The notes under the pieces: model-generated
Seen by the model: only the letters and a program-made list of their open reading frames with translations
Told to the model about the DNA's origin: nothing
Databases searched by the model: none
NCBI GenBank assembly: GCA_017553815.1
Contig: JAFZJT010000082.1
Location: 1 to 11,150, forward strand
Reading direction: 5' to 3'
Origin: Clostridia bacterium
GTDB taxonomy: Bacteria; Bacillota_A; Clostridia; Christensenellales; CAG-138
Length of the DNA: 11,150 nucleotides
In this document: positions 1 to 11,000 of the stretch, in pieces
How positions within the stretch are numbered: the first letter of the stretch is position 1
How the letters are laid out: every line of letters starts with the position of its first letter
Translations under genes and position numbers: made by a program

Positions 1-157
1 ACTAAGTCTATTTGATCCCCGCGACCCGTTTACGGGTAGCAGATAAACCTATGCGTGGCTGGCAGGCCAATAAACAGCCCACGTGTGGGCAGCCAATAAT
101 ATGAGGGCTATGCCCGAAACTGAAATACCCCCGGCTATGCCGGGGGATCATTATTGG
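1..157 (+). mobile_element. Probable right end of an IS200/IS605-family element, rich in hairpins
   Basis: Several perfect hairpins lie in a row. ACCCGT/ACGGGT (25-38) overlaps the end of the partial reading frame. GCCCAC/GTGGGC lies at 77-90. GGGC-TAT-GCCC lies at 105-115. CCCCCGGC-TAT-GCCGGGGG at 128-146 is an 8-bp stem with the same TAT loop. CCAATAAT (93-100) and ATTATTGG (150-157) are inverted copies that would close a stem around the last two hairpins. GCCAATAA also occurs directly repeated at 66-73 and 92-99. IS200/IS605 elements carry subterminal hairpins recognised by TnpA instead of terminal inverted repeats. The exact right boundary is not visible; I place it near 157 because the closing stem ends there. 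An alternative is an unrelated structured RNA or a REP-like array. Confidence 0.45.
2..46 (+). CDS. 3' end of probable IS200/IS605-family TnpA (Y1) transposase, partial
   Basis: Reading from base 2, the last codons before the TAA at 44-46 give LSLFDPRDPFTGSR. The DPF(T/K)G(S/N) ending is, from memory, typical of the C-terminus of IS200-type Y1 transposases, which cut and join single-stranded DNA through a tyrosine. The rest of the gene lies outside the window, so the HUH motif and the catalytic Tyr cannot be checked. The hairpin-rich DNA that follows is what an IS200/IS605 right end looks like, which supports the call. A 14-residue tail is weak evidence alone, and it could be the end of another gene. 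Confidence 0.4.
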   Translation, partial: LSLFDPRDPFTGSR

Positions 158-169
158 GTTTTAGCGCGG

Positions 170-198
170 TTGATTTTATCTCGCGGATTTGTTATAAT
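170..198 (+). promoter_or_regulatory. SigA-type promoter for the gene at 205
   Basis: TTGATT (170-175) and a perfect TATAAT (193-198) are separated by 17 bp. The expected start of transcription, about 7 bp after the -10, falls on the A of the ATG at 205. There is no room for a leader, so the transcript is probably leaderless. The -35 lies only about 12 bp after the apparent end of the IS-like sequence. Confidence 0.7.
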
Positions 199-204
199 AG
201 CGGC

Positions 205-1767
205 ATGGAAAATGGTATGGAAAAGCTTGAAAACGGATCGGCTTCAGCCGCGAATGAAGTCTCCGAAAAAACGGGAAACAGCGGGAAGGCCGCGCTCCCT
301 TATTCGGCGCTGTCTCTATCAAGAAGAAACGCATTCATGTGGGCGGCGATGCTTTTTGCGCTGCTCTCCTTTGCCGTGCGCATAGCCTACTACAGCCCGA
401 TAAGAGAGGGCGCGGAAGGCACGGGGTCATTCCTGTTCCCGTTCTTTTTCGTCGTTCTGCCCGGGCTTTGCTATCTTTTGTTTTCAATAGACATTATATT
501 TAAGGGCGAAAAGGAACTCTACAGAACCTCGCGCCCCGTGCTTTTATTCGTTGCTTTCCTTATAGCGCGCGCGCTTTGGCTCCTAAAAGAGGGTAAAAAC
601 GGCGTAACAAGCGCTCTTGTCGCCGCCGCGCTGATAGTCCTTTACATCGTTTGCGCGGTTCTCTATCGATTCGCTGTAAATACCGGCGGAAGAAGACGGA
701 ATATCGCCAAACGCCGCTTTCTTGCGCTCGCGGCGCTTTTGATAGCGCTTGCGGCGGAGATATTGCTCGTGCTTCTCCCGCAGAGGACGGAGCTGACAGT
801 GGCTCTGTGCTTTGCCGAGGCCTCGCTTATTATGAATATCCTCGCGGCGACCTGCGTGCTTATCGGCGCAAAAAAGCGTGAAAGCGAGCATCCTATGCCG
901 ATGGCGGGGGACAGGAAGGACGGTCGCAGGATACGCTCGCTCGACCCGATGAACAGCGTTGCCGTATACGTCATGACCGAGCGCAACACGGCAAACAATC
1001 TCTTCCACGACAGCGTTGAGGTAAGCAAAGCGGAAGCCTATATAAGGCAAAAGCGCGAACAGGGTCTCGACAGCTTCGGCTATACGCATCTCTTCCTCGC
1101 CGCATACGTTCGCACCGTTTCCCAGCGCCCCGCGATGAACCGATTCATCAGCGGGCAGAAGGTGTTTTCAAGGGAGGATCGCCTCGAGATAGCGATGGCG
1201 ATAAAAAAGGATATGTCCCTTGAGGCCTCCGAAACGATAGTGAATATCATCCTCTCGCCAGAGGACACCGCTGAAACGATCTATGAAAAATTCAATAAAG
1301 AGGTCGAGGCTGTAAAGGCCTCCTCGGAGCTCGACAGCGGCTTTGATAAGTTTGTGGGGCTTGTGAACTATATCCCCGGCCTGCTTTTGAAGTTCACGGT
1401 CTGGTTCATAAAACTTCTCGATTATTTCGGGCTTCTGCCGAATTTCATAACCAAGATAAGTCCCTTCCACGGCTCCATCTTCGTAACGAGCATGGGTTCG
1501 CTGGGCATCCCCCCGGTCTATCACCATCTTTACGATTTCGGAAACATACCGCTGTTTCTCGCCTTCGGCATGAAGCGCAGCGAAAACGAGGTGCAGGCGG
1601 ACGGAAGCGTTTCAAGAAAGAAGTATATCGACTTCACTGTCAATACCGACGAGCGCATCTGCGACGGCTACTACTACGCCTCCGCGTTCAAGTATTTCAA
1701 GCGCTGTATCGCGGATCCTTCGCGCCTTGACGAGCCGCCCGAGAGCGTGGTTTGGGATGTCGAGTAA
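205..1767 (+). CDS. Membrane protein with C-terminal 2-oxoacid dehydrogenase E2-like acyltransferase domain
   Basis: The 520-residue protein has about six transmembrane helices (roughly 43-63, 74-98, 109-126, 134-157, 169-191 and 195-219) and then a soluble domain from about 245 to 508. That domain resembles the catalytic domain of E2 acyltransferases and chloramphenicol acetyltransferase: an SMGSLGI segment, a PLFLAFG strand, and the C-terminal motif DERICDG (482-488). In true E2 enzymes this motif is DHRxxDG and its His is the catalytic base. Here residue 483 is Glu, so ordinary acyl transfer is doubtful. No lipoyl or subunit-binding domain is present, so it is not a component of a normal dehydrogenase complex. 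I chose the ATG at 205 because the promoter would run into any earlier start; the frame is open from an ATG at 154, and 217 is an alternative. It heads a likely three-gene operon. Fold assignment is fairly secure, function unknown. Confidence 0.7.
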   Translation: MENGMEKLENGSASAANEVSEKTGNSGKAALPYSALSLSRRNAFMWAAMLFALLSFAVRIAYYSPIREGAEGTGSFLFPFFFVVLPGLCYLLFSIDIIFKGEKELYRTSRPVLLFVAFLIARALWLLKEGKNGVTSALVAAALIVLYIVCAVLYRFAVNTGGRRRNIAKRRFLALAALLIALAAEILLVLLPQRTELTVALCFAEASLIMNILAATCVLIGAKKRESEHPMPMAGDRKDGRRIRSLDPMNSVAVYVMTERNTANNLFHDSVEVSKAEAYIRQKREQGLDSFGYTHLFLAAYVRTVSQRPAMNRFISGQKVFSREDRLEIAMAIKKDMSLEASETIVNIILSPEDTAETIYEKFNKEVEAVKASSELDSGFDKFVGLVNYIPGLLLKFTVWFIKLLDYFGLLPNFITKISPFHGSIFVTSMGSLGIPPVYHHLYDFGNIPLFLAFGMKRSENEVQADGSVSRKKYIDFTVNTDERICDGYYYASAFKYFKRCIADPSRLDEPPESVVWDVE

Positions 1768-1830
1768 AATAGGGCGGAAGGAAACCAGCTTTTCAGAAAA
1801 CGGAGAGCCGTTTGTGGCAGATAAAAAAGT

Positions 1831-2508
1831 ATGAACGAAAAAAGAAAAAACAACGGGATACAGGGTGTGCTCATTGCCGCCTCATGCTTTTTGATAATCG
1901 CGGTGTTCGCGCTCATCCTTATCATCCCAGCCTCAAGGGAGGATTTCAAAAGGCTTTCGAGCGAGCATCCCTATATAATGGGCTTCATCAAGTTCGCGCT
2001 TCTTGCAACGATAGGCGAAGTTTTCGCTTTGCGTATCAAGAAAAAGGAGTGGATGCTCCCGGTTCTCGTCGTGCCGCGCATAGCGATATGGGGCGTTATC
2101 GGAATCGCGATAACCTTTATGATGAAGTTCTTCTCAAACGGCGTTTCCGCTATGATGGAGAAGGGGCTTCTTCCGAACCCGCAAGAGGGATTCCGGCAGA
2201 ACCTTCTTCGAGCGTTCTTCACGGCGGCGCTTATGAACCTCTGTTTCGGACCCGTGTTCATGGCGTTTCATAAATGCACCGACAAATACCTCGAACTGCG
2301 CGCCGCCGGCGTTGAAAAGCCCGGTCTCAAGGGCGTTATCGAGTCGATCGACTGGCACGGTTTCGTATCCTTCACGCTGTTTAAGACCATCCCGTTCTTC
2401 TGGATACCCGCGCACACGCTGACCTTTATGCTCCCCGCCGAGTATCAGGTCATAGTCGCGGCGGCGCTCTCGATCGCGCTCGGAATAATACTGAGCCTCA
2501 AAAAATAA
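1831..2508 (+). CDS. Multi-pass membrane protein, Mpv17/PMP22-like
   Basis: The 225-residue protein is strongly hydrophobic. A helix near residues 10-32 is followed by segments near 50-65, 75-98, 127-145 and 178-222. The C-terminal half holds IDWHGFVSF, then KTIPFFWIPAHTLTF, then LPAEYQV. From memory this pattern is found in bacterial proteins annotated as Mpv17/PMP22 family, which are membrane proteins of uncertain function, possibly channel-like. The start has no clear Shine-Dalgarno sequence (AT-rich GATAAAAAAGT precedes it). The gene begins 63 bp after the acyltransferase-like gene and ends 45 bp before the GTPase fusion, so it is probably cotranscribed with both. A short AAACGG/CCGTTT hairpin (1798-1813) lies in the upstream gap but lacks a U-tract. 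The family call is tentative; an integral membrane protein is certain. Confidence 0.6.
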   Translation: MNEKRKNNGIQGVLIAASCFLIIAVFALILIIPASREDFKRLSSEHPYIMGFIKFALLATIGEVFALRIKKKEWMLPVLVVPRIAIWGVIGIAITFMMKFFSNGVSAMMEKGLLPNPQEGFRQNLLRAFFTAALMNLCFGPVFMAFHKCTDKYLELRAAGVEKPGLKGVIESIDWHGFVSFTLFKTIPFFWIPAHTLTFMLPAEYQVIVAAALSIALGIILSLKK

Positions 2509-2553
2509 AGTGGCAACGAATAATCTGACGATAAGGAAATATAAACCGAAAAC

Positions 2554-5550
2554 ATGACAAAGCTTGCTTTGGGGATCCTCGCACATGTGGACGCAGGAAA
2601 GACCACACTCTGCGAGGGTCTTATGTATTTAACGGGCAGAATACGCGAAAGGGGAAGGGTGGATCACGGCGATTCACACCTTGATAACCATGCTCTCGAA
2701 AGAAAGCGCGGCATAACCATCTTCTCAAAGCAGGCAGGCATAAAAACCGAAAGGCTCGAAGCGGAGCTGATCGACACGCCCGGTCACGTCGATTTTTCGA
2801 CCGAGGCCGAGCGCGTCCTCGGCATACTCGATTACGCGGTGCTGATAATTAGCGGCACGGACGGCGTTCAGGCGCATACGCTCACGCTCTGGAAGCTGCT
2901 GCGCCGTTTTCATGTTCCGACTTTCATCTTCATAAACAAAATGGATATCGCCCATTTCAAAAGAGCGGAGCTGATGCGCGCGCTTGAAAGGGAGCTTTCG
3001 CCCGTCTGCGTGGATTTCTCCGCGGAGGAAGGGGCGCTTTTTGAGGCTGCAGCTATTGCGGATGAGGCGCTTTTTGAAGCCTACCAACTAAACGGCGCGC
3101 TTTCAAAAGCGGAGATAGCCGAAGCGATAAGGGAGGAGCGCATCTTCCCGTGCTTCTTCGGCTCGGCGCTGCATTTAACGGGCGTTAAGGAATTCATCGA
3201 GGGGCTTGAAGAGTATACGCTCGCCCACTCATTCGGCGCGGAGTTCGGCGCAAGGGTTTTTAAAATCTCAAGGGATGCGCAGGGTCAGCGGCTCACGCAT
3301 CTTCGCGTTACGGGCGGGGAAATGACCGTTCGCATGAGCGTTTCCTATACGAGCCGAAGCGGCGAGCGGAAAGCTGAGAAGGCGGTGGGGATACGCCTGT
3401 ATTCTTGCGCAAAATTCACTCAGATTGAAAAAGCATCTGCGGGGGAAATAGTTGCCGTGACGGGATTAACCGAAACCTACCCGGGTCTTGGACTCGGCGT
3501 TGAGGAGAAAAATCCTTCGCTTGCCGCCGTTTTAACGCCTGTCTTGAGCTACCGAATAAAGCTTCCTTTGGGCGTGGACGCGCAAAGCGCATTCAAAAAG
3601 CTCTCGGAGCTGTCGGAGGAGGATCCCGCGCTCTCGATCGAATGGGACGACGAGCAAAAGCAGATACGCGCGCGCCTGATGGGTGAGGTGCAGATCGAGG
3701 TTTTAAAAAGCATCATAAAGGAGCGCTTCGATCTGGACGCGGAGATAGATGAGGGCCGCGTCATGTACCAAGAAACGATAAAAGCGCCCGTCGAGGGCAT
3801 AGGGCATTTCGAGCCGCTTCGGCACTATGCCGAGGTGCATCTGTTGCTTTCGCCGCTCGAAGCGGGAAGCGGGCTTGAATGGGGCTCGAGCGTCAGTCAA
3901 AACGACCTTGACTTGAACTGGCAAAGGCTGATTTTGACCCATATCGCCGAAAAAACGCATAGGGGAGTGCTGACGGGCTCGCCCATAACCGATATGCGCA
4001 TCGAGCTTATCGCGGGCAGGGCGCATCTTGCGCACACCGAGGGCGGCGATTTCCGCCAAGCTACCTACCGCGCGATAAGGCAGGGGCTTATGAAGGCCGA
4101 GAGCGTCCTGCTCGAACCGTATTACGCCTACCGCATCGAGCTTTCGCGCGAACAGCTCGGAAGGGCGATAGGCGATATCCGCGCGATGGGCGGAAGCTTC
4201 AATATCGCCGAGGAGGAGGCTTCGGACGGCTTTGCCGCGATAACGGGCTTTGTTCCCGTTGCGGGAATGCGCGGCTATGCGCGCACGCTCGCTTCGTACA
4301 CGGGAGGCAGGGGCAGGCTCTCTCTTGAGGTGTCGCATTACGACCGATGCACCGAGTCCGAGAAGGTCATCGCGGAATTCGCCTACGAGCCCGAGCGCGA
4401 CATTGATAATACGGCGGACTCCGTTTTCTGCGCCCACGGCGCGGGCTTCACGGTGAACTGGCGCGAGGTCGAAAACTATATGCATATCGACACGGGGCTT
4501 TCGCGCGAGCGCATCTCGGAGGGCGCGGAAACGCCGGAGCCGAGGCTCGTTTCGCGCAATCTGAACGTGGATGAAAAGGAGCTGGAGGCGATAATGCTAC
4601 GCGAATTCGGCCCCATCAAGCGCCCCGATTACGGAAGAAGCGAAAAACGCGCCGAAAAAAGCGAAAAGGAAATACCGCCAAGACCCATCCAAAAGGAATA
4701 CCTGATGGTGGACGGCTACAATATGCTCTTTGCGTGGGAGAGCCTTAGGGAGCTTGCCAAGGACGACCTTGCTGCGGCAAGAAAGCGGCTCATGGACATT
4801 CTCGTCAATTACTGCGGCTTCAAAAAGAGCGAGATCGTGCTCGTGTTCGACGGCTACCGCGTAAAGGGCAACGCGGGCGAAAGATTCGATTATCACGGCC
4901 TCAAGGTCGCGTACACCAAGGAAAACGAGACCGCCGACGCGCTTATCGAGCGACTCATCGCCGAGATCGGCAAAAACTACGCCGTGCGCATCGCCTCGTC
5001 GGACGGCATGATACAGCTTTCGGGCGTTCGCTCGGGCGCGCTTCGCATGACAGCGCGCGAGCTTGAAGCCGAGGTGGAGAGCGTCAACGAAAGATTGCAC
5101 GAGTATATGGAAAATCTCAAAAAGGGGAATGCCTTGGTGAAGCTCGAGCTTGGAAAAGCATTTGCAAAAGAGGGAAAAAGCGAAATGATACTGCACAAAA
5201 TGAACCTGAACGACCGCCCGTTTGAGATGATAAAAAGCGGGCAAAAGACAATCGAGCTGCGGCTCTACGATGAAAAGCGCAGGCTGATCTCGGTCGGGGA
5301 TATCATCGAGTTCACGCATTCCTCGGATGAAACGCGAATTCTTCGCACAAGGGTGAAGGCACTGCACATTTTCAAGGACTTTGCGGAGCTTTACGCCGCG
5401 CTTCCGCTCGATAAATGCGGCTATACGGCGGAGGATATCGCGCTCGCCTCGCCCGAGGATATGCTCGAATACTACTCAAGGGAGAAGCAGGCGCAGTACG
5501 GAGCGGTTGGAATAGAGCTCGAAGTGTTAGACAAACATGAAACGAGTTAA
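2554..5550 (+). CDS. TetM/EF-G-like translational GTPase fused to YacP/Rae1-like NYN nuclease and ASCH domain
   Basis: The protein has 998 residues. Residues 1 to about 645 are an EF-G/TetM-type GTPase with all nucleotide motifs: AHVDAGKTT (10-18), RGITIF (52-57), DTPGH (74-78), NKMD (128-131) and a GSALHLTGV G5-like loop. Domains II to V follow. The domain IV tip reads HTEGGDFR (494-501), where TetM has a Pro-containing SPVSTPADFR loop. Residues 646-715 are a charged linker. Residues 716-865 match the YacP/Rae1 NYN fold: VDGYN with D720, VFD with D766, TKENETAD with E792 and D795, SSD with D817, and SGALRMTARELEAEVE. These are the expected metal-binding acids, so the nuclease looks intact. 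Residues 878-992 form an ASCH domain (PFEMIKSGQKTIELR, then GDIIEF). Known: TetM relatives bind ribosomes, and Rae1 cuts mRNA in the A site. Inferred: the GTPase targets the nuclease to ribosomes. The nearest AGGA is 16 nt before the ATG, so translation start is weakly marked. Confidence 0.88.
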   Translation: MTKLALGILAHVDAGKTTLCEGLMYLTGRIRERGRVDHGDSHLDNHALERKRGITIFSKQAGIKTERLEAELIDTPGHVDFSTEAERVLGILDYAVLIISGTDGVQAHTLTLWKLLRRFHVPTFIFINKMDIAHFKRAELMRALERELSPVCVDFSAEEGALFEAAAIADEALFEAYQLNGALSKAEIAEAIREERIFPCFFGSALHLTGVKEFIEGLEEYTLAHSFGAEFGARVFKISRDAQGQRLTHLRVTGGEMTVRMSVSYTSRSGERKAEKAVGIRLYSCAKFTQIEKASAGEIVAVTGLTETYPGLGLGVEEKNPSLAAVLTPVLSYRIKLPLGVDAQSAFKKLSELSEEDPALSIEWDDEQKQIRARLMGEVQIEVLKSIIKERFDLDAEIDEGRVMYQETIKAPVEGIGHFEPLRHYAEVHLLLSPLEAGSGLEWGSSVSQNDLDLNWQRLILTHIAEKTHRGVLTGSPITDMRIELIAGRAHLAHTEGGDFRQATYRAIRQGLMKAESVLLEPYYAYRIELSREQLGRAIGDIRAMGGSFNIAEEEASDGFAAITGFVPVAGMRGYARTLASYTGGRGRLSLEVSHYDRCTESEKVIAEFAYEPERDIDNTADSVFCAHGAGFTVNWREVENYMHIDTGLSRERISEGAETPEPRLVSRNLNVDEKELEAIMLREFGPIKRPDYGRSEKRAEKSEKEIPPRPIQKEYLMVDGYNMLFAWESLRELAKDDLAAARKRLMDILVNYCGFKKSEIVLVFDGYRVKGNAGERFDYHGLKVAYTKENETADALIERLIAEIGKNYAVRIASSDGMIQLSGVRSGALRMTARELEAEVESVNERLHEYMENLKKGNALVKLELGKAFAKEGKSEMILHKMNLNDRPFEMIKSGQKTIELRLYDEKRRLISVGDIIEFTHSSDETRILRTRVKALHIFKDFAELYAALPLDKCGYTAEDIALASPEDMLEYYSREKQAQYGAVGIELEVLDKHETS

Positions 5551-5594
5551 AAAACACTTGAAAATATCGTAAATTTATCGAATTTCCTGTTGTA

Positions 5595-5623
5595 TTGATC
5601 AGAAAAGGATACCGTAATATATA
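5595..5623 (+). promoter_or_regulatory. Candidate promoter for the small acidic protein gene
   Basis: TTGATC (5595-5600) and TATATA (5618-5623) are 17 bp apart in an AT-rich gap. A second reading is TTGTAT (5590-5595) with TAATAT (5615-5620), 19 bp apart. No terminator hairpin is seen between the preceding stop (5550) and this site, so readthrough from the upstream operon is possible as well. Confidence 0.4.
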
Positions 5624-5652
5624 CAAGGCATCGAGAATGCTGAACTAATCCT

Positions 5653-5660
5653 AAAAGGAG
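5653..5660 (+). promoter_or_regulatory. Strong ribosome binding site for 5668
   Basis: AAAAGGAG lies 7 nt before the ATG at 5668. It is the best Shine-Dalgarno sequence on the + strand here, and it settles the start against the out-of-frame ATG at 5663. Confidence 0.85.
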
Positions 5661-5667
5661 ATATGGT

Positions 5668-6117
5668 ATGGCAGGTATTTTGGACGCTATTAAAAACCTT
5701 TTCTCGAGAAAGGAAAATGAAGCAGAGCAGGCGGTAAATCAGGCGGCGAACGCGGCCGAGAACACCGCAGAGGACGTGCAGGACAAGGCAGAGGACATTA
5801 AGGACGCGGCGGAGAACATTGTGGACGACGTTAAGGACAAGGTGGACGACGTTGTTGATGGGATCAAGGATAAGCTTCCCGATATCGGCAGCTTCTTCGA
5901 GTCGATCCTCGGCAAGCTGCCCATCGAGGGCGAGCTTGGCGATCAGGTAAACGAGGTCATCGGCTCCGTGCGTTCCTCCGCTCCCGAGGATGCGGACGTT
6001 CGCAGCATCGGCGGCAGAATCATCGATGCGCTCACCGCTAAGTTCGGTCTTGAGGGCGAGATCGGCGAAAAGATAAAGGCGGTCATCGAATTTATCAAAT
6101 CGAAGCTCCCCATCTGA
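5668..6117 (+). CDS. Small acidic amphipathic-helix protein (LEA/apolipoprotein-like), uncharacterised
   Basis: The 149-residue protein has no signal peptide and no membrane segment. Residues 14-70 are almost all A, E, D, K, N, Q and V in a repeating amphipathic pattern (AENTAEDVQDK, AEDIKDAAEN, VDDVKDKVDDVV), like LEA-type stress proteins or surface-binding helices. The 12-base unit GTGGACGACGTT occurs twice (5821 and 5842), a sign of short internal duplication. The second half contains two similar segments: LPIEGELGDQVNEVIGSV and FGLEGEIGEKIKAVIEFI. This suggests a duplicated domain of about 60 residues. I do not recognise a named family. The strong RBS, a separate promoter candidate and the efficient-looking terminator suggest it is an abundant, independently controlled protein. 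Confidence 0.75.
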   Translation: MAGILDAIKNLFSRKENEAEQAVNQAANAAENTAEDVQDKAEDIKDAAENIVDDVKDKVDDVVDGIKDKLPDIGSFFESILGKLPIEGELGDQVNEVIGSVRSSAPEDADVRSIGGRIIDALTAKFGLEGEIGEKIKAVIEFIKSKLPI

Positions 6118-6144
6118 GGACGAGGAACAAAACAGCATAAAACG

Positions 6145-6185
6145 AAAAAATGCTTCGGCGGTTCGCTGCCGAAGCATTTTCTTTT
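6145..6185. terminator. Bidirectional rho-independent terminator between convergent genes
   Basis: A 13-bp perfect stem, AAAATGCTTCGGC (6147-6159) with GCCGAAGCATTTT (6168-6180), has an 8-nt loop. On the + strand it is followed by TTTTCTTTT, and on the - strand by six T (complement of 6145-6150). It can end the gene at 5668-6117 and the converging gene at 6265-7107. Confidence 0.9.
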
Positions 6186-6206
6186 GAAATTCCGAAGGAA
6201 TTTCAA
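6184..6206. repeat. Perfect 10-bp inverted repeat next to the terminator
   Basis: TTGAAATTCC (6184-6193) and GGAATTTCAA (6197-6206) form a perfect stem around a GAA loop. It is separate from the terminator stem and has no U-tract, so it is probably a piece of a dispersed intergenic repeat and not a second terminator. Confidence 0.7.
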
Positions 6207-6213
6207 CCTCAAC

Positions 6214-6248
6214 TATTCACTTTTCATTATTCAATATTCACTATTAAC
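6214..6248. repeat. Tandem 7-bp repeat, five copies
   Basis: The units read TATTCAC, TTTTCAT, TATTCAA, TATTCAC and TATTAAC, a 35-bp array with consensus TATTCAN. It lies just beyond the 6184-6206 hairpin and 16 bp before the stop codon of the - strand gene. Its function is unknown. Confidence 0.75.
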
Positions 6249-6264
6249 TAAAAGCGGTTCCCCG

Positions 6265-7107
6265 TCATTCCCTTCCCTTATTGAAGGTGATGATGCTCTC
6301 GGGGTCTATCGGGCTGCCCTCATAGTGCAGCTCGAAATGAAGGTGGCTTCTTTCGGCGCATTCGCTTATCGCGGTGTCGCCTATAAAGCCAATGACCTGC
6401 CGCTCGTCGACGCGGTCGCCCGTTTTGACAGGCGGCTCATCCTTGAGGCTTGAATAAACGCTTATAAGCCCGTTTGCGTGGCGCACGACGACCGTAACGC
6501 CGAGCATATCGTCGGAGTAAACGTTTTCAACGGTGCCGGAGAGTACGCAGTAAACCTCATCGCCCTTCTTCGCCGCGATATCCACGCCAGAATGCGTCAT
6601 CCATTGCTTGAGCGTTTCGGAGTAGATAAGCGAATTCATCGCGAAAACCCGGATAACGTGACCGTCCACAGGGGGCTGGAGCTTCGATAGCTGCGGATCG
6701 GCGGTCAGCTCCGGATGCGGCGTAATATCGGGTATCGGCACGGGCGAGTCGGCGGGAACGGCCGTCTCGCGCGGCTTTGCGCTCGGCGCGGGCGAAACGT
6801 TGTAAGCGTAGGGTGATAGGGTGATGTTGGGCTTGGGCGATACCGCATTGCGCGGGTTTTGGGTCGGGGCGGGAGAGGCCGATGACCCTGCGGTGGGCGT
6901 GCTCACGACCTCGGCGAGCCGCTCGTCGTCGCTCCTGCCTACGGGCGTGGGCTTATCGCCGTCGCCCAAAAACAGCACCGCCGCCGCGATGCCCAAAACG
7001 GCAAGGCAGGCGAAGGCCGACAGATACAGCCCGTTCCTTCTGAAAAATATCGCGGTGCGCAGCCTCGTTTGGCGCAGCTTCCATTTGCGTTCGGATCTTT
7101 TGTCCAT
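6265..7107 (-). CDS. spoIIQ: SpoIIQ-like M23 (LytM) zinc metallopeptidase-family membrane protein
   Basis: The 280-residue protein has a basic cytoplasmic N-terminus, one membrane helix (about 27-47), a Pro/Ser/Thr-rich spacer (about 53-145), and a C-terminal M23 domain (about 150-275). The zinc-site motifs are complete: HSGVD (H172, D176) and HLH (H255, H257). The domain also shows GDRVDERQVIGFIG and HLHFEL. A single anchor, an extracytoplasmic LytM domain and this length fit SpoIIQ, the forespore protein that pairs with SpoIIIAH in the channel across the engulfing membranes. B. subtilis SpoIIQ has a degenerate zinc site, whereas clostridial forms keep it, so the intact site fits a clostridial type. 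AAAGGA (7115-7120) lies 7 nt before the ATG. The SigF-like promoter upstream supports forespore expression. The alternative is a generic M23 cell wall hydrolase. Confidence 0.72.
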   Translation of the reverse strand: MDKRSERKWKLRQTRLRTAIFFRRNGLYLSAFACLAVLGIAAAVLFLGDGDKPTPVGRSDDERLAEVVSTPTAGSSASPAPTQNPRNAVSPKPNITLSPYAYNVSPAPSAKPRETAVPADSPVPIPDITPHPELTADPQLSKLQPPVDGHVIRVFAMNSLIYSETLKQWMTHSGVDIAAKKGDEVYCVLSGTVENVYSDDMLGVTVVVRHANGLISVYSSLKDEPPVKTGDRVDERQVIGFIGDTAISECAERSHLHFELHYEGSPIDPESIITFNKGRE

Positions 7108-7331: not shown

Positions 7332-10300
7332 TCAGCTTACAAAGCCGTTAAAAACGGGCTTGTCGAACACGGGAGCGGAAGCCGCGCCCGCGGTGACGAG
7401 CTTAAACAGCCTGACACTTCCGTTCGTGCTCTTGCCGGTGGTGAAATAGGTCTTGCCGGAGTTGATGGTCAGATAGTAATAGCCTGCGGAGTCGATCTGG
7501 TTGTTCAGATCGCCGTTCTGCCATTTCCAGGAAACGGAGGTCGCGGTGGGAGCAAGATACTCGGTGGAATCAAGACCCATGTACTTGCCGTTGCCGACGT
7601 TGCGGAACGTCCAGCCCGCCGTTTCATTGCCGCCGACGGTCCAAAGGATGTCGTTTGCGTTGACGCTTGCGGGAACGGTGAGGATGCCGCTTGAATTGAC
7701 GGTAACGGACTTTGCGGTGAGGTAGTGGTTGTTGGAATAGATGGTATTGCCAACAGCCTTATCGCCGATAACAACGATGTACTTCTCGCCAGCAACGGGG
7801 GCGCTTACTTCAACGTAGCTGTCAACTGCGAGAGCCGCGGTGGGTGCGGGGGTGGGTGTCACGGGAGCAGATGTCGGGGTGTTGGTCGGCCTCGGAGTTG
7901 CGGTCGGAGCCGGGGTGTTGGTCGGTGCCGCGGTCGGGTTTGCGCCGCTCTCAACGAGCTTGTAAAGCTTAACGCCGCCGCTCGTGCTCTTGCCGGTGGT
8001 GAAGTAGGTATTGGCGGAGCTGATGGTCAGGTAGTAGTAACCCTCGGAGTCGATCTGGTTGTTCAGATCGCCGTTCTCATATTTCCACGCAACCGAGGTC
8101 GTTGTGGGAGCAAGATACTCGGTGGAGTCAAGACCCATGTATTTGCCGTTGCCGACGTTCCGGAACGTCCAACCCGCGTTGGCGTTGCCGCCAACGGTCC
8201 AGAGGATGTCGTTCGCGGAAACGGATGAGGGGATGGTGAGAGTGCCGTTTGAGTTGACGGTAACGGTCTTGGCGGTCAGATAATGGTTGTTGGAATAGAT
8301 GGTATTGCCAACAGCCCTGTCGCCGATAGCCACAACGTACTTCTCGCCTGCAACGGGTGCGCTTACCTCAACGTAGGAGGTGCCGCCGGGAGCCGCGGTG
8401 GGAGCAGGGGTATTGGTCGGTCTCGGGGTCGCGGTTGGCGCGGGGGTATTGGTCGGTCTCGGGGTCGCGGTTGGCGCGGGGGTAGCGGTCGGGTTTGCGC
8501 CGCCCTCAACGAGCCTGTAAAGCTTAACGCCGCCGCTCGTGCTCTTGCCGGTGGTGAAATAAGTATTGGCGGAGCTGATGGTCAGGTAGTAGTAACCCTC
8601 GGAGTCGATCTGGTTGTTCAGATCGCCGTTCTCATATTTCCACGCAACGGAGGTCGCGGTGGGAGCAAGATACTCGGTGGAGTCAAGACCCATGTATTTG
8701 CCGTTGCCGACGTTCCGGAACGTCCAGCCCGCATTTGCGCTGCCGCCAACGAGCCAAAGGATGTCGTTTGCGTTCACACTTGCGGGGATCGTCAGAGTGC
8801 CGTTTGAGTTGACGGTAACGGTCTTGGCGGTCAGATAATGATTGTTGGAATAGATGGTATTGCCAACAGCACTGTCGCCGATAACCACAACGTACTTCTC
8901 GCCCGCAACGGGAGCTGAAACCTCAATGCAGGAGGTGCCGCCGGGAACCGCAGTGGGAGCGGGAGTCGGGGTATTCGTGGGACTCGGGGTTGCGGTCGGA
9001 GCCGGGGTCGGGGTGTTGGTCGGCCTCGGAGTCGCGGTCGGCGCTGGGGTTGGGGTGTTGGTCGGCCTTGGTGTCGCGGTCGGCGCTGGGGTTGGGGTGT
9101 TGGTCGGCCTTGGTGTCGCGGTGGGCGCGGAGCCGCCGCCGGAGTAGGAAACATTGTCGATCCTTACGCAGTCGGCGCCGCTGTTCATGCTCAGATCCTT
9201 GGTCATCAGCCACTCGAACTTATACCTGCCTGCGGAGGGCGCGGTGAAGGTGTGGCTGTTCCAGTCGCTGTTGTAGGTGCCGGAAAGATGGAGCTTGCTG
9301 ACGTCGTTTACGTTGAAGTCGAACCAGTCGTAGTTGGATTCGCAGCTGTACCAGTAATCGAAGCTGAGGGTCTCGCCCGCCTGCATATTGATGATCGTTT
9401 GCAAGGTGGAAATGCTGTCGTCAACGTTGATATTGCCGGATTCCGCATAGCTTCTGCCGTCCGCTTGCTTAACGCTGAAGGGATAGTCGCCCACGGACAC
9501 GAAGTCGAGAGCGCCGCCCGCAACGTTCAGAGCCGCCTTGAGCTCGGGATCCGAGCGGATGATAACGTTTACCTGCGCGGTGCCGAAAACGGAGCCGTTT
9601 ACACGAACGGTGCAGGTGATGACGGCTTCGCCGTATTCAAGACCCTTGATAGCCGCAAAGCCGCTGTTTCCGTTTACCTGCGCAACCGCGGGGTTGGAGG
9701 AGGTCCAAGTCAGCTCGTAGTTGTTCGCGTTCGTGGGAACGGTGTTGAAGTTGACGTATGCGGTCTCATCGAGCATCAGCTGAACAGAGTTGCGGTCGAG
9801 CTCAAAGCTCGTGATGTTGACGTTCTGATTGTCGGTAACGAGCTGCCAATCGCAGTAAACGGTTTGACGCGAATCGGGATTGGCGGGGAATGCGTCGCGG
9901 GTGCTCATGACAACGGGATATGCCTTATCCTTGCCGTAGGGATCGGGCAGACCGACACTGTTGACCATAGTGTTAAACGCCTCGGCAATGGTTGCGCCGT
10001 TCTTCATCTCGCCCCAGAATATCTCTTCAAAGCGATAATCACCGGAGAAGGAAACGTTCTGGGAATAGCCGTAGACCGCTGCCGCGCCGGATGCGAGCAG
10101 AGCCCTGCCGGTGGTGCCCTTACCCTCGCGCTTCATGCCCTGACACATGGCCATCCAGAAGAAGGTGTTTGAAAGCCTTCCGTTTATATGGTTCTGGATA
10201 TAGCGGCCGTCGATGTATGCGCCGTCACTGACGTTGATCGCCCATCCGTTGCTGTAGTCATCGGCGGTGATGCCTGCGCTGGTGGTGAGGCAGAGATAGC

Positions 10301-10967
10301 TGGAGTTTCCACGCTGAACGCCGTGGCTGTCGTAGATAACAACGCCCTTATTGATAACGTTCGCGGCGATATTAGGACCCGTCGCGTTCTCGGCCTGGAC
10401 AAGGGTGTATGTGCCGCCGGTCGTATTCGCGATGGACTGAGCCTCCGTCTTGTACTGATCGGTGAAGAGGCTGTCGATGCCGTAGTAGGGAGCAACGAGC
10501 AGTACGTTCGGGGAGGAATAGGTGTTCACGGTCTTTGGGGAAACGGACTCGGTAACTACCTTGCCGTTTGCGTCGTAAACGATGATGCCTTCGCTCGGGT
10601 CAACCTGCATCGCGCCTTCGGAGCTGAGTTCGTTGCGCAGATGATAGTTGTAGGCGCAGTGCATGCCGTCCACGGTGAAGTAGAAGCCGGGGTCGGTCCT
10701 GCCGCCGAGGGAGATGCTGTCCTTATCGACGTAGCGGGTGTTGAGAGCGGCCTCAAGCGCGGCGTTGATCACTTGAGCGCGATCCATGCCCTCTTCAAGG
10801 GCTTTTGCTTCGGCAGCGTTGATAGCTGCCCAGGTTTTTACCAGCTTGCTCATTTGACGTGCTTCATAGGTGACGCTGCGTGCACCTTCTGCGAGGGAAG
10901 CCACGGGGATCATGGCGACGGCCATGATGAAGGCAAGAGCCAGTGCGAGGATTCTTCTGGTTTTCAT
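7332..10967 (-). CDS. Large secreted multidomain protein with caspase/gingipain-like cysteine peptidase domain
   Basis: The 1211-residue protein starts with a signal peptide (MKTRR, hydrophobic core, SLA-EG cleavage near 26). Residues 27-150 may be a propeptide. Residues about 153-365 look like a clan CD (caspase/gingipain C25-type) peptidase: a strand then YDSHG with H215, and FFWMAMCQG with C275, followed by the glycine-rich GRALLASGAAAVYGY and the AEAF helix. Both dyad residues are present. A BIG2 Ig-like domain follows (about 384-470), then a beta-sandwich-like domain (about 474-608) possibly binding carbohydrate, a Thr/Pro linker (614-676), and three 145-residue repeats (680-824, 865-1009, 1051-1195) joined by Thr/Pro linkers. 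There is no LPXTG, dockerin or SLH anchor, so it is either released or held by the repeats. GGAGG (10973-10977) is 5 nt before the ATG at 10967; the in-frame ATG at 10979 overlaps this site and is rejected. Substrate unknown. Confidence 0.82.
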   Translation of the reverse strand: MKTRRILALALAFIMAVAMIPVASLAEGARSVTYEARQMSKLVKTWAAINAAEAKALEEGMDRAQVINAALEAALNTRYVDKDSISLGGRTDPGFYFTVDGMHCAYNYHLRNELSSEGAMQVDPSEGIIVYDANGKVVTESVSPKTVNTYSSPNVLLVAPYYGIDSLFTDQYKTEAQSIANTTGGTYTLVQAENATGPNIAANVINKGVVIYDSHGVQRGNSSYLCLTTSAGITADDYSNGWAINVSDGAYIDGRYIQNHINGRLSNTFFWMAMCQGMKREGKGTTGRALLASGAAAVYGYSQNVSFSGDYRFEEIFWGEMKNGATIAEAFNTMVNSVGLPDPYGKDKAYPVVMSTRDAFPANPDSRQTVYCDWQLVTDNQNVNITSFELDRNSVQLMLDETAYVNFNTVPTNANNYELTWTSSNPAVAQVNGNSGFAAIKGLEYGEAVITCTVRVNGSVFGTAQVNVIIRSDPELKAALNVAGGALDFVSVGDYPFSVKQADGRSYAESGNINVDDSISTLQTIINMQAGETLSFDYWYSCESNYDWFDFNVNDVSKLHLSGTYNSDWNSHTFTAPSAGRYKFEWLMTKDLSMNSGADCVRIDNVSYSGGGSAPTATPRPTNTPTPAPTATPRPTNTPTPAPTATPRPTNTPTPAPTATPSPTNTPTPAPTAVPGGTSCIEVSAPVAGEKYVVVIGDSAVGNTIYSNNHYLTAKTVTVNSNGTLTIPASVNANDILWLVGGSANAGWTFRNVGNGKYMGLDSTEYLAPTATSVAWKYENGDLNNQIDSEGYYYLTISSANTYFTTGKSTSGGVKLYRLVEGGANPTATPAPTATPRPTNTPAPTATPRPTNTPAPTAAPGGTSYVEVSAPVAGEKYVVAIGDRAVGNTIYSNNHYLTAKTVTVNSNGTLTIPSSVSANDILWTVGGNANAGWTFRNVGNGKYMGLDSTEYLAPTTTSVAWKYENGDLNNQIDSEGYYYLTISSANTYFTTGKSTSGGVKLYKLVESGANPTAAPTNTPAPTATPRPTNTPTSAPVTPTPAPTAALAVDSYVEVSAPVAGEKYIVVIGDKAVGNTIYSNNHYLTAKSVTVNSSGILTVPASVNANDILWTVGGNETAGWTFRNVGNGKYMGLDSTEYLAPTATSVSWKWQNGDLNNQIDSAGYYYLTINSGKTYFTTGKSTNGSVRLFKLVTAGAASAPVFDKPVFNGFVS
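7383..7817 (-). repeat. Third copy (C-terminal) of the 145-residue repeat domain
   Basis: Encodes residues 1051-1195, from YVEVSAPVAGEKY to LFKLVTAGA. It is the most diverged of the three: SVTVNSSGILTV, VSWKWQNGD and TINSGKTYFTT replace the forms shared by the other two. The protein continues only about 16 residues beyond it. Confidence 0.9.
7941..8375 (-). repeat. Second copy of the 145-residue repeat domain
   Basis: Encodes residues 865-1009. It is nearly identical to the first copy at both DNA and protein level (WKYENGDLNNQ, SANTYFTTGKSTSGG), which suggests a recent duplication or continuing gene conversion. The pattern VGNGKYMGLDS and GYYYLTIS suggests an all-beta, possibly ligand-binding fold. 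I do not recognise a named family with certainty. Confidence 0.9.
8496..8930 (-). repeat. First copy of the 145-residue repeat domain
   Basis: Encodes residues 680-824, starting CIEVSAPVAGEKY; the other two copies start with YVEVSAP, so this copy alone has a Cys. Spacing to the second copy is 555 bp and from second to third 558 bp, linkers included. Confidence 0.9.
8961..9128 (-). repeat. Four tandem 42-bp repeats coding a Thr/Pro linker
   Basis: Four copies of a 14-residue unit, APTATPRPTNTPTP, with one R to S change in the last copy, total 168 bp. Related shorter linkers lie at 8376-8495 and 7818-7940. These are flexible, extended spacers between secreted domains and possible sites of O-glycosylation. 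Repeat number may vary between strains through slippage. Confidence 0.9.
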
Positions 10968-10972
10968 TATAA

Positions 10973-10977
10973 CCTCC
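10973..10977 (-). promoter_or_regulatory. Ribosome binding site deciding the start at 10967
   Basis: GGAGG on the - strand, 5 nt before the ATG at 10967. It lies inside the four-codon extension that would begin at 10979, so the shorter protein, which opens with a normal signal peptide, is preferred. Confidence 0.85.
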
Positions 10978-11000
10978 ATTGGAATTTGTTTATATACAAC

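Follow-up and report, generated by a model that had tools for sequence, protein, structure and literature searches.

A clostridial fusion of a translational GTPase and a Rae1-type nuclease, probably its hosts' only Rae1, and its late ASCH addition in one small clade

Introduction

Why should a GTPase of the ribosome carry a Rae1-type nuclease on its own chain? The question is raised by a gene at 2554..5550 (+) of an 11,150-nucleotide stretch of DNA from a Clostridia bacterium (contig JAFZJT010000082.1; this whole stretch is referred to as the window), the product of which joins an EF-G/Tet-type GTPase, a YacP/Rae1-type NYN nuclease, and an ASCH domain. The answer favored here, with a probability of roughly one half, is that the protein is a chromosomal, vertically inherited ribosome GTPase, which carries the only Rae1 of the cell and docks this tethered nuclease on paused ribosomes.

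A YacP-like NYN domain on the Tet proteins of ten Clostridiales species, with a suggested resistance mechanism, has been described in an earlier account (Atkinson 2015, PMC4342817), and the mention of clostridial GTPase-NYN fusions in an earlier, sequence-only reading of the window was therefore correct. The present fusion shares with those Tet-NYN proteins its Tet-type GTPase, its YacP-like NYN, and its clostridial hosts; it differs from that account in its many more hosts, the sole-Rae1 pattern, the altered domain-IV tip, and the added ASCH, of which the main text makes no mention (PMC4342817). Among the open-access titles and abstract openings listed, there was no other report of the fusion, the sole-Rae1 pattern, or the ASCH form, although the cited Rae1 papers, one of them on Rae1 distribution, could contain part of this. 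The GTPase-NYN fusion is thus already known but unstudied, and what is new is its wide spread, the sole-Rae1 pattern, the tip and tail in unfused relatives, and the history of the ASCH domain.

Domain structure of the fusion protein

The gene is a single intact open reading frame (ORF) of 998 codons encoding 998 amino acids (aa), as the sequence-only reading had described it, and the product runs from the GTPase (residues 1–602) through a tail and linker (603–715) to the NYN (717–857) and ASCH (884–992) domains. In Pfam searches, GTP_EFTU covers residues 5–221 (E = 1e-46) and is followed by EF-G domains 2 (231–307), III (328–399), IV (401–516), and V (518–602), then by NYN_YacP (717–857; E = 3.5e-42, 144.6 bits vs. 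a cut-off of 24.6) and ASCH (884–992; E = 8.8e-7 in the whole protein and 2.3e-8 when the segment was scanned alone). Every domain exceeds its Pfam gathering score except EF-G D2, which equals its own cut-off (27.0 bits). The GTP_EFTU motifs and EF-G domains II–V (domain II equaling its cut-off only) place the first part (2554..4359, +) among the EF-G/Tet-type translational GTPases; five EF-G/GTPase Pfam models and the alignments to TetM and EF-G cover this part, and its motifs comprise the P-loop A10–T18, R52–F57, D74–H78, and N128–D131. Its closest solved structure in a search with the whole protein is TetM (249 bits), with Staphylococcus aureus EF-G close behind at 242 bits. The NYN domain (4702..5124, +), with its score above the cut-off and its acidic residues retained, belongs to the YacP/Rae1 nucleases and aligns with solved Bacillus subtilis YacP over ∼140 residues (E = 2.5e-22; 5mq8, 5mq9). 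The B. subtilis protein is separate (181 aa in the solved entries), whereas the present domain stands behind a GTPase and is accompanied by a linker and an ASCH domain. S1025 is named as the first substrate of Rae1 to have been characterized (PMC11780869). The last segment (residues 878–992; 5185..5529, +) is an ASCH domain by profile, fold, and the GxKxxxxR motif (PMC5615036), here the octapeptide GQKTIELR.

Homologs were surveyed as the best 120 of 7993 scored 90%-clusters, of which P0001 is the window protein, and 30 of them were aligned with it (alignment A1, 31 rows). K16, T17, T55, D74, H78, and D131 are retained across this alignment (K16 and T17 are gapped in one truncated row), N128 is replaced by T in two of the 31 rows, and the nuclease residues D720, D766, E792, D795, and D817 are invariant in all 31. 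Domain search, conservation in this alignment, and the folded ASCH segment described below thereby bear out the GTPase motifs, the NYN acidic residues, and the ASCH domain that had been read from the letters; the complete EF-G domains II–V and a conserved tail at about 596–645, between the GTPase and the NYN, go beyond that reading.

Two parts of the GTPase are shared with relatives that carry no NYN domain. Such unfused, tail-bearing GTPases occur in 29 of the 393 genomes described below, and the 12 read as sequence are ∼640–670 aa long, with starts chosen by the analyst. The domain-IV motif EPLRH (residues 420–424; 3811..3825, +) is present in 31/31 rows of A1 and in the same form in the 12 unfused relatives except at residue 423 (R in nine, K in two, G in one). 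In the domain-IV tip, HTEGGDFRQ in the window protein (H494–Q502; 4033..4059, +), residues H494, T495, and G497–R501 are found in all 12, where the tip reads K-H-T-x-G-G-D-F-R. Similarly, C599, C626, and H644 of the tail (596–645; 4339..4488, +) are invariant in the 34 rows of alignment A2, the 31 of A1, and 12/12 unfused relatives, in 10 of which a Cys adjoins the tail His. No Pfam model matches the tail; since all 12 unfused relatives share it, it belongs to the GTPase, and its Cys and His residues may form a putative metal site, to judge from their conservation.

Selection differs along the chain. In comparisons of the window with three relatives, the ratio of nonsynonymous to synonymous substitution rates (dN/dS) is lowest in the NYN (0.05–0.09), followed by the GTPase (0.14–0.16), the ASCH (0.18–0.22), and the tail and linker (0.20–0.26), whereas the 18-residue join at 861–878 gives 0.62 and 0.35 (the third value is not computable), so that the ASCH domain is maintained, under purifying selection, and the join is loose. 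The full-length predicted structure is of moderate confidence (mean predicted local distance difference test score, pLDDT, 69.7; predicted template modeling score, pTM, 0.43), and in the linker (646–715; 4489..4698, +) model confidence falls below 50 at 650–673 and 686–710. In a structure search with this model, all 50 rows listed are EF-G or EF-G-like entries, with root-mean-square deviations of 19–27; because of this poor superposition, no domain placement is claimed from it.

Genome distribution of the fusion

The distribution of the fusion among genomes carries the main argument. Among 596 relatives found in named genomes, the best 80 were retained, and in 24/24 genomes chosen from those 80 a single NYN_YacP match was found, within a long frame (845–1039 aa; one listed at 597). 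A wider sample comprised 393 genomes of the class of the genome of L001, one of the relatives, with matches classed by frame length and place. YacP was matched in 250 of these genomes and the GTPase tail in 165. The fusion is present in 136, in frames of at least 734 aa in 129 and cut or frame-broken in seven (G067, G179, G195, G208, G213, G258, and G318); in G258 and G067 the frame of the GTPase is not that of the NYN, owing perhaps to breaks or to errors in sequencing. An intact separate YacP was found in only one of the 136 fusion genomes (G307, 174 aa) vs. 113 of the 257 others (Fisher p ∼2e-24; this and the p value below are only a guide because the genomes are related by descent). More than one YacP match occurs in five fusion genomes, of which only G307 has an intact separate copy; the extra matches in G143, G197, and G231 are weak, partial, and under the cut-off. 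The fifth, G393, has two small broken YacP pieces (G393:C56:81209-81444), one just over the cut-off, which look like a decayed old copy. In the family of the genome of L001 (103 genomes), YacP was matched in 43: in frames of at least 852 aa in 40, in a frame of 173 aa in G451, and cut or broken in G428 and G443.

The unfused genomes give the complementary picture. A separate YacP occurs in 22 of the 29 genomes with an unfused tail (among which G226 has its match in a 301-aa frame and G229 a 35-position match in a 44-aa frame) vs. 91 of the 228 without a tail (p ∼3e-4). Of those 22 separate YacPs, 20 lie in frames of 170–190 aa, and those of G354 and G395 in frames of 178 and 180 aa; the other seven tail genomes have no YacP match. 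The 91 genomes with YacP but no tail comprise 45 with frames of 169–216 aa and 46 with frames of 160–226 aa save one of 342 aa. That longer frame (G309:C66:17869-18387), without a GTPase tail, is possibly another YacP fusion. One genome (G284) has a sub-cut-off scrap, and the remaining 136 genomes have neither tail nor YacP.

Almost every fusion host in the sample thus yielded no intact YacP besides the fusion, which is probably the only Rae1 of its host. Judging by its relatives, the genome of the window would likewise carry no other YacP. A tree of 57 GTPase parts, from which rows L002 and L022 were left out for want of a usable frame, separates the 45 fused from the 12 unfused sequences by one branch; depending on where the root lies, this branch stands for a single fusion or a single split. 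It appears that a large group of Clostridia built the nuclease into a translational GTPase and retained another intact copy in only one of 136 cases; the sole-Rae1 pattern, if true, would link the cutting of mRNA inside the ribosome to a GTPase.

Proposed mechanism

On the favored reading, the GTPase would bind the factor site of ribosomes with an empty A site, whether paused or blocked, and its specialized domain-IV tip (EPLRH, HT.GGDFR) would probe the decoding center. GTP hydrolysis would then let domain IV leave and free the site, and the Rae1-type NYN, which follows domain V and the Cys/His tail on a linker of ∼70 residues, would cut the mRNA within the A site or beside it. Where present, the ASCH domain, a late acquisition of one small clade, would be an extra module for RNA contact. 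Ribosome binding, GTP gating, A-site cleavage, the order of these steps, and the ASCH ligand are what we infer. In the A site, the position of Tet-type factors overlaps the sites of EF-G and of tetracycline (PMC8161019). Domain IV and the NYN should not share the A site, so turn-taking is predicted. The sequence-only reading had proposed a combined rescue and mRNA-clearing factor; the GTPase-linked A-site nuclease in that proposal gains support from the genome distribution, and its rescue part is unsupported here. The fusion makes GTPase gating of A-site mRNA cleavage testable with one gene. More tentatively, Clostridia might run a general GTP-gated surveillance of A-site mRNA, in which a dedicated GTPase licenses Rae1, as two proteins or as one, with no free entry of Rae1 to the A site, and in which the ASCH form recognizes a particular RNA feature.

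Several points weigh against the favored reading. A fusion made from the resident yacP gene trivially removes the separate copy, so exclusivity shows replacement and not GTP gating; the sole-Rae1 count itself has the NYN row listed within the long frame for 80 of the 129 long fusions, the other 49 being judged from the frame length of the tail. Moreover, the seven tail genomes without YacP and the 91 YacP genomes without a tail mean that neither part depends strictly on its partner. There would be competition for room in the A site between domain IV and a Rae1, which would have to act in turn, and the full-length model, of moderate confidence, is silent on domain placement.

The best of the alternatives is possible if rather unlikely: the NYN would be an ordinary Rae1 and the GTPase would do a separate job on the ribosome, with the link between them keeping only equal dose and proximity. 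The low-confidence linker of the model and the occurrence of each part without the other agree with such joint supply. The fused state is less easily explained by it, since one fusion has been kept across rows labeled Lachnospiraceae and Oscillospiraceae, and no unfused row falls inside the fused group of the 57-row tree.

Relation to tetracycline resistance proteins

A second alternative, proposed for the known Tet-NYN fusions (Atkinson 2015, PMC4342817), is that the protein protects ribosomes from tetracycline and has gained an RNase, with the GTPase removing the drug and the RNase acting on RNA of the blocked ribosome. TetM is the best solved-structure match, tet_protect is the top NCBIfam model, and the annotation of one plasmid copy names a Tet-family protein. 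The score against tet_protect, however, is 395 bits vs. a curated cut-off of 775, about half. In addition, Pro509 of TetM, a residue of the drug site (PMC8161019), aligns with Ala493 of the window protein, and no Pro stands at this position in any of the 31 rows of A1 (A, K, S, H, or N) or in the 12 unfused relatives, which all have K. The protein is therefore like TetM and TetO in being a GTPase with EF-G-like domains and unlike them in lacking Pro509, in its other domain-IV tip, in its extra Cys/His tail, and in falling far under the NCBIfam cut-off; of the earlier label "TetM-like", the resemblance to TetM as best solved match stands and drug displacement does not. The absent proline and the shared HT.GGDFR tip together favor a specialized decoding-center factor over a resistance protein. 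The known resistance protein Otr(A) likewise departs from TetM at the domain-IV tip, so the missing proline alone does not exclude resistance.

The genomic setting also speaks against this alternative. The same two genes precede the fusion gene in five relatives, and a tail-NYN query matched 57 of 72,556 plasmid records, with at least 80% coverage in only two, and 12 of 50,697 phage records, again with at least 80% coverage in two. This rarity argues against a mobile resistance gene, though not against some resistance. Taken together, resistance is an unlikely explanation, and genes annotated as Tet-family resistance proteins may be mRNA-surveillance factors. Twelve Clostridioides plasmid records (three listed, H8–H10, on plasmids of ∼97–100 kb) carry an NYN protein that matches the nuclease part only. 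Two unannotated fecal "Bacteriophage sp." records, H11 and H12 (MT835563 and MT835514), match the tail-NYN query over 97–98% and may be host DNA.

The ASCH domain

The sequence-only reading had described a three-part single-chain machine; all three domains are present, and the ASCH domain is a late add-on restricted to one small clade, outside the basic machine. ASCH is found in seven of the best 120 clusters listed, plus one fragment. These seven (P0001–P0007; five by the precomputed Pfam list and the remaining two by rescan) have the same domain order, and P0002–P0007 are 997–998 aa long and 81–86% identical to the window protein; the order predicted for homologs thus recurs, and no assembly join is at issue. 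Of the other clusters, P0024 is a 594-aa row with ASCH, and 112 have no listed ASCH and are shorter (846–914 aa). In the family of the genome of L001, 32 of the 103 genomes have an ASCH match, one each, of which three lie in frames of 997–1008 aa and 29 in frames of 119–456 aa, some of them maybe other fusions. No ASCH match was found beside the fusion in the other lineages (L002–L080) within the flanks fetched.

In genome G433, the Tet-NYN gene and an ASCH gene are separate, and the stop of the first and the start of the second share the 4-base overlap ATGA. G437, which is nearer to the clade of the window than G433 (support 91, not starred), has no ASCH match there. The fused ASCH sequences form one clade (support 99/93), and a common origin with the adjacent ASCH of G433 is neither shown nor rejected (approximately unbiased test, p = 0.44), so the two may be separate recruitments. 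Residue M878 marks the old ASCH start: it stands at the position where separate ASCH genes begin, and the window, G440, and G436 retain it, whereas L001 has lost it. The ASCH form and the relative with a separate, overlapping ASCH gene offer a natural example of how a ribosome factor with several domains is assembled step by step.

Folded with a 46-row alignment, the ASCH segment reaches a mean pLDDT of 92.7 and matches solved ASCH proteins. The nearest solved sequences are archaeal PF0455 (1s04; E ∼1e-12) and PH0355 (2z0t; E ∼2e-12; template modeling score of 2z0t_A 0.78 by query length), both separate proteins called hypothetical, whereas the ASCH is fused here. The Zymomonas ASCH RNase and Escherichia coli YqfB share the fold but only 14–19% identity. 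The same ASCH family occurs in 36 long proteins (from 374 candidates): eight of the Tet-NYN-ASCH type, 23 with PF05958 (the U5-methyltransferase family), one of RsmF type, three with acetyltransferase models, and one with an amylase model. P0243 (PF05958-ASCH) is above the NCBIfam RlmD (rumA) cut-off and the RsmF-type P0268 is under the RsmF cut-off; P0264 was also checked. Across P0242–P0268, fusions of the family to RlmD-type methyltransferases recur, one fusion is to an RsmF-type methyltransferase, and others are to acetyltransferase- and Nudix-type proteins. Such partners point to a promiscuous, largely but not only RNA-linked module, and the role of the ASCH domain in the fusion may be to hold mRNA or rRNA.

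These partners are also the main argument for a third alternative, a ribosome maturation or turnover factor whose nuclease cuts rRNA or its precursors after being placed on subunits by the GTPase and ASCH. The ASCH family is attached to rRNA methyltransferases (PF05958 in 23 of 28 non-Tet long proteins, plus the RsmF-type one), and a role of the NYN domain in the maturation of rRNA and tRNA has been suggested (cited in PMC4342817). The absence of ASCH from most of the clusters listed, however, means that it cannot define the basic role, and the action described for Rae1 is translation-dependent and targets mRNA; we regard this alternative as improbable. Still less credible is an RNA-editing activity, in which the ASCH would be a YqfB-type enzyme that deacetylates N4-acetylcytidine: YqfB is an ASCH amidohydrolase (PMC9599836), the fold matches it (Foldseek E = 1.9e-4), and the octapeptide Lys and Arg are retained, but its nucleophile Thr24 (Lys+3) is replaced by Glu in 46/46 aligned ASCH sequences by octapeptide spacing, so that the triad Lys21-Thr24-Glu74 (PMC9599836) is not reproduced, and PH0355 and PF0455 are closer solved relatives.

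Gene neighborhood

The last alternative, an assembly join or frameshift that merged separate genes, can be dismissed, since the two overlapping genes of G433 and the 121-aa P0121, listed as its own protein and by eye identical in letters to the ASCH end of P0003, are outweighed by six other clusters of 997–998 aa, purifying selection on either side of the join, and the full GTPase-NYN-ASCH form behind the same two upstream genes in three further genomes (L001, G440, and G436). P0121 may be a fragment or a split copy, or its start may have been called within the fusion.

Those upstream genes lie on the same strand: one with a C-terminal 2-oxoacid-dehydrogenase-acyltransferase match in Pfam (154..1767, +), and one with a weak Mpv17-like match under the Pfam cut-off (1831..2508, +), which ends 45 nt before the fusion gene. 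Both are kept in order before the fusion gene in L001, G440, G436, G433, and G437. Over the wider family there is no shared neighborhood, as no ORF family besides the gene itself occurs in more than 14 of 81 sequences, a rough count in which some wrong-strand frames were picked. No PADLOC anti-phage defense family was matched at E up to 0.01. Leader RNAs and attenuators are common for tet genes, and Rfam at gathering thresholds gave no match in the window, L140, or L001; the stretch from the upstream stop to the start codon of the fusion gene is only 45 nt long. Promoter-like sites in 1700–6300 are at chance level (three vs. a mean of 2.5), and terminator-like sites in the same region number 12 vs. 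6.6 expected (standard deviation 2.8), with the longest stem on the minus strand at 6182–6145.

Downstream of the fusion gene, the window encodes a small protein with weak YtxH/apolipoprotein-like matches (5668–6117, +), which is found downstream in the ASCH-fused G440, G436, and L001 and not in G433 or G437, followed by an M23 peptidase (6265–7107, −; Pfam 8e-23). Matches to the peptidase lie downstream of the fusion in both G440 and G433, and in G437 on the contig of the fusion. The last gene (7332–10979, −) encodes a 1215-aa protein that matches Big_2 and whose similar C-terminal modules are separated by Pro/Thr-rich stretches, and it has a counterpart of 71–76% identity in G440.

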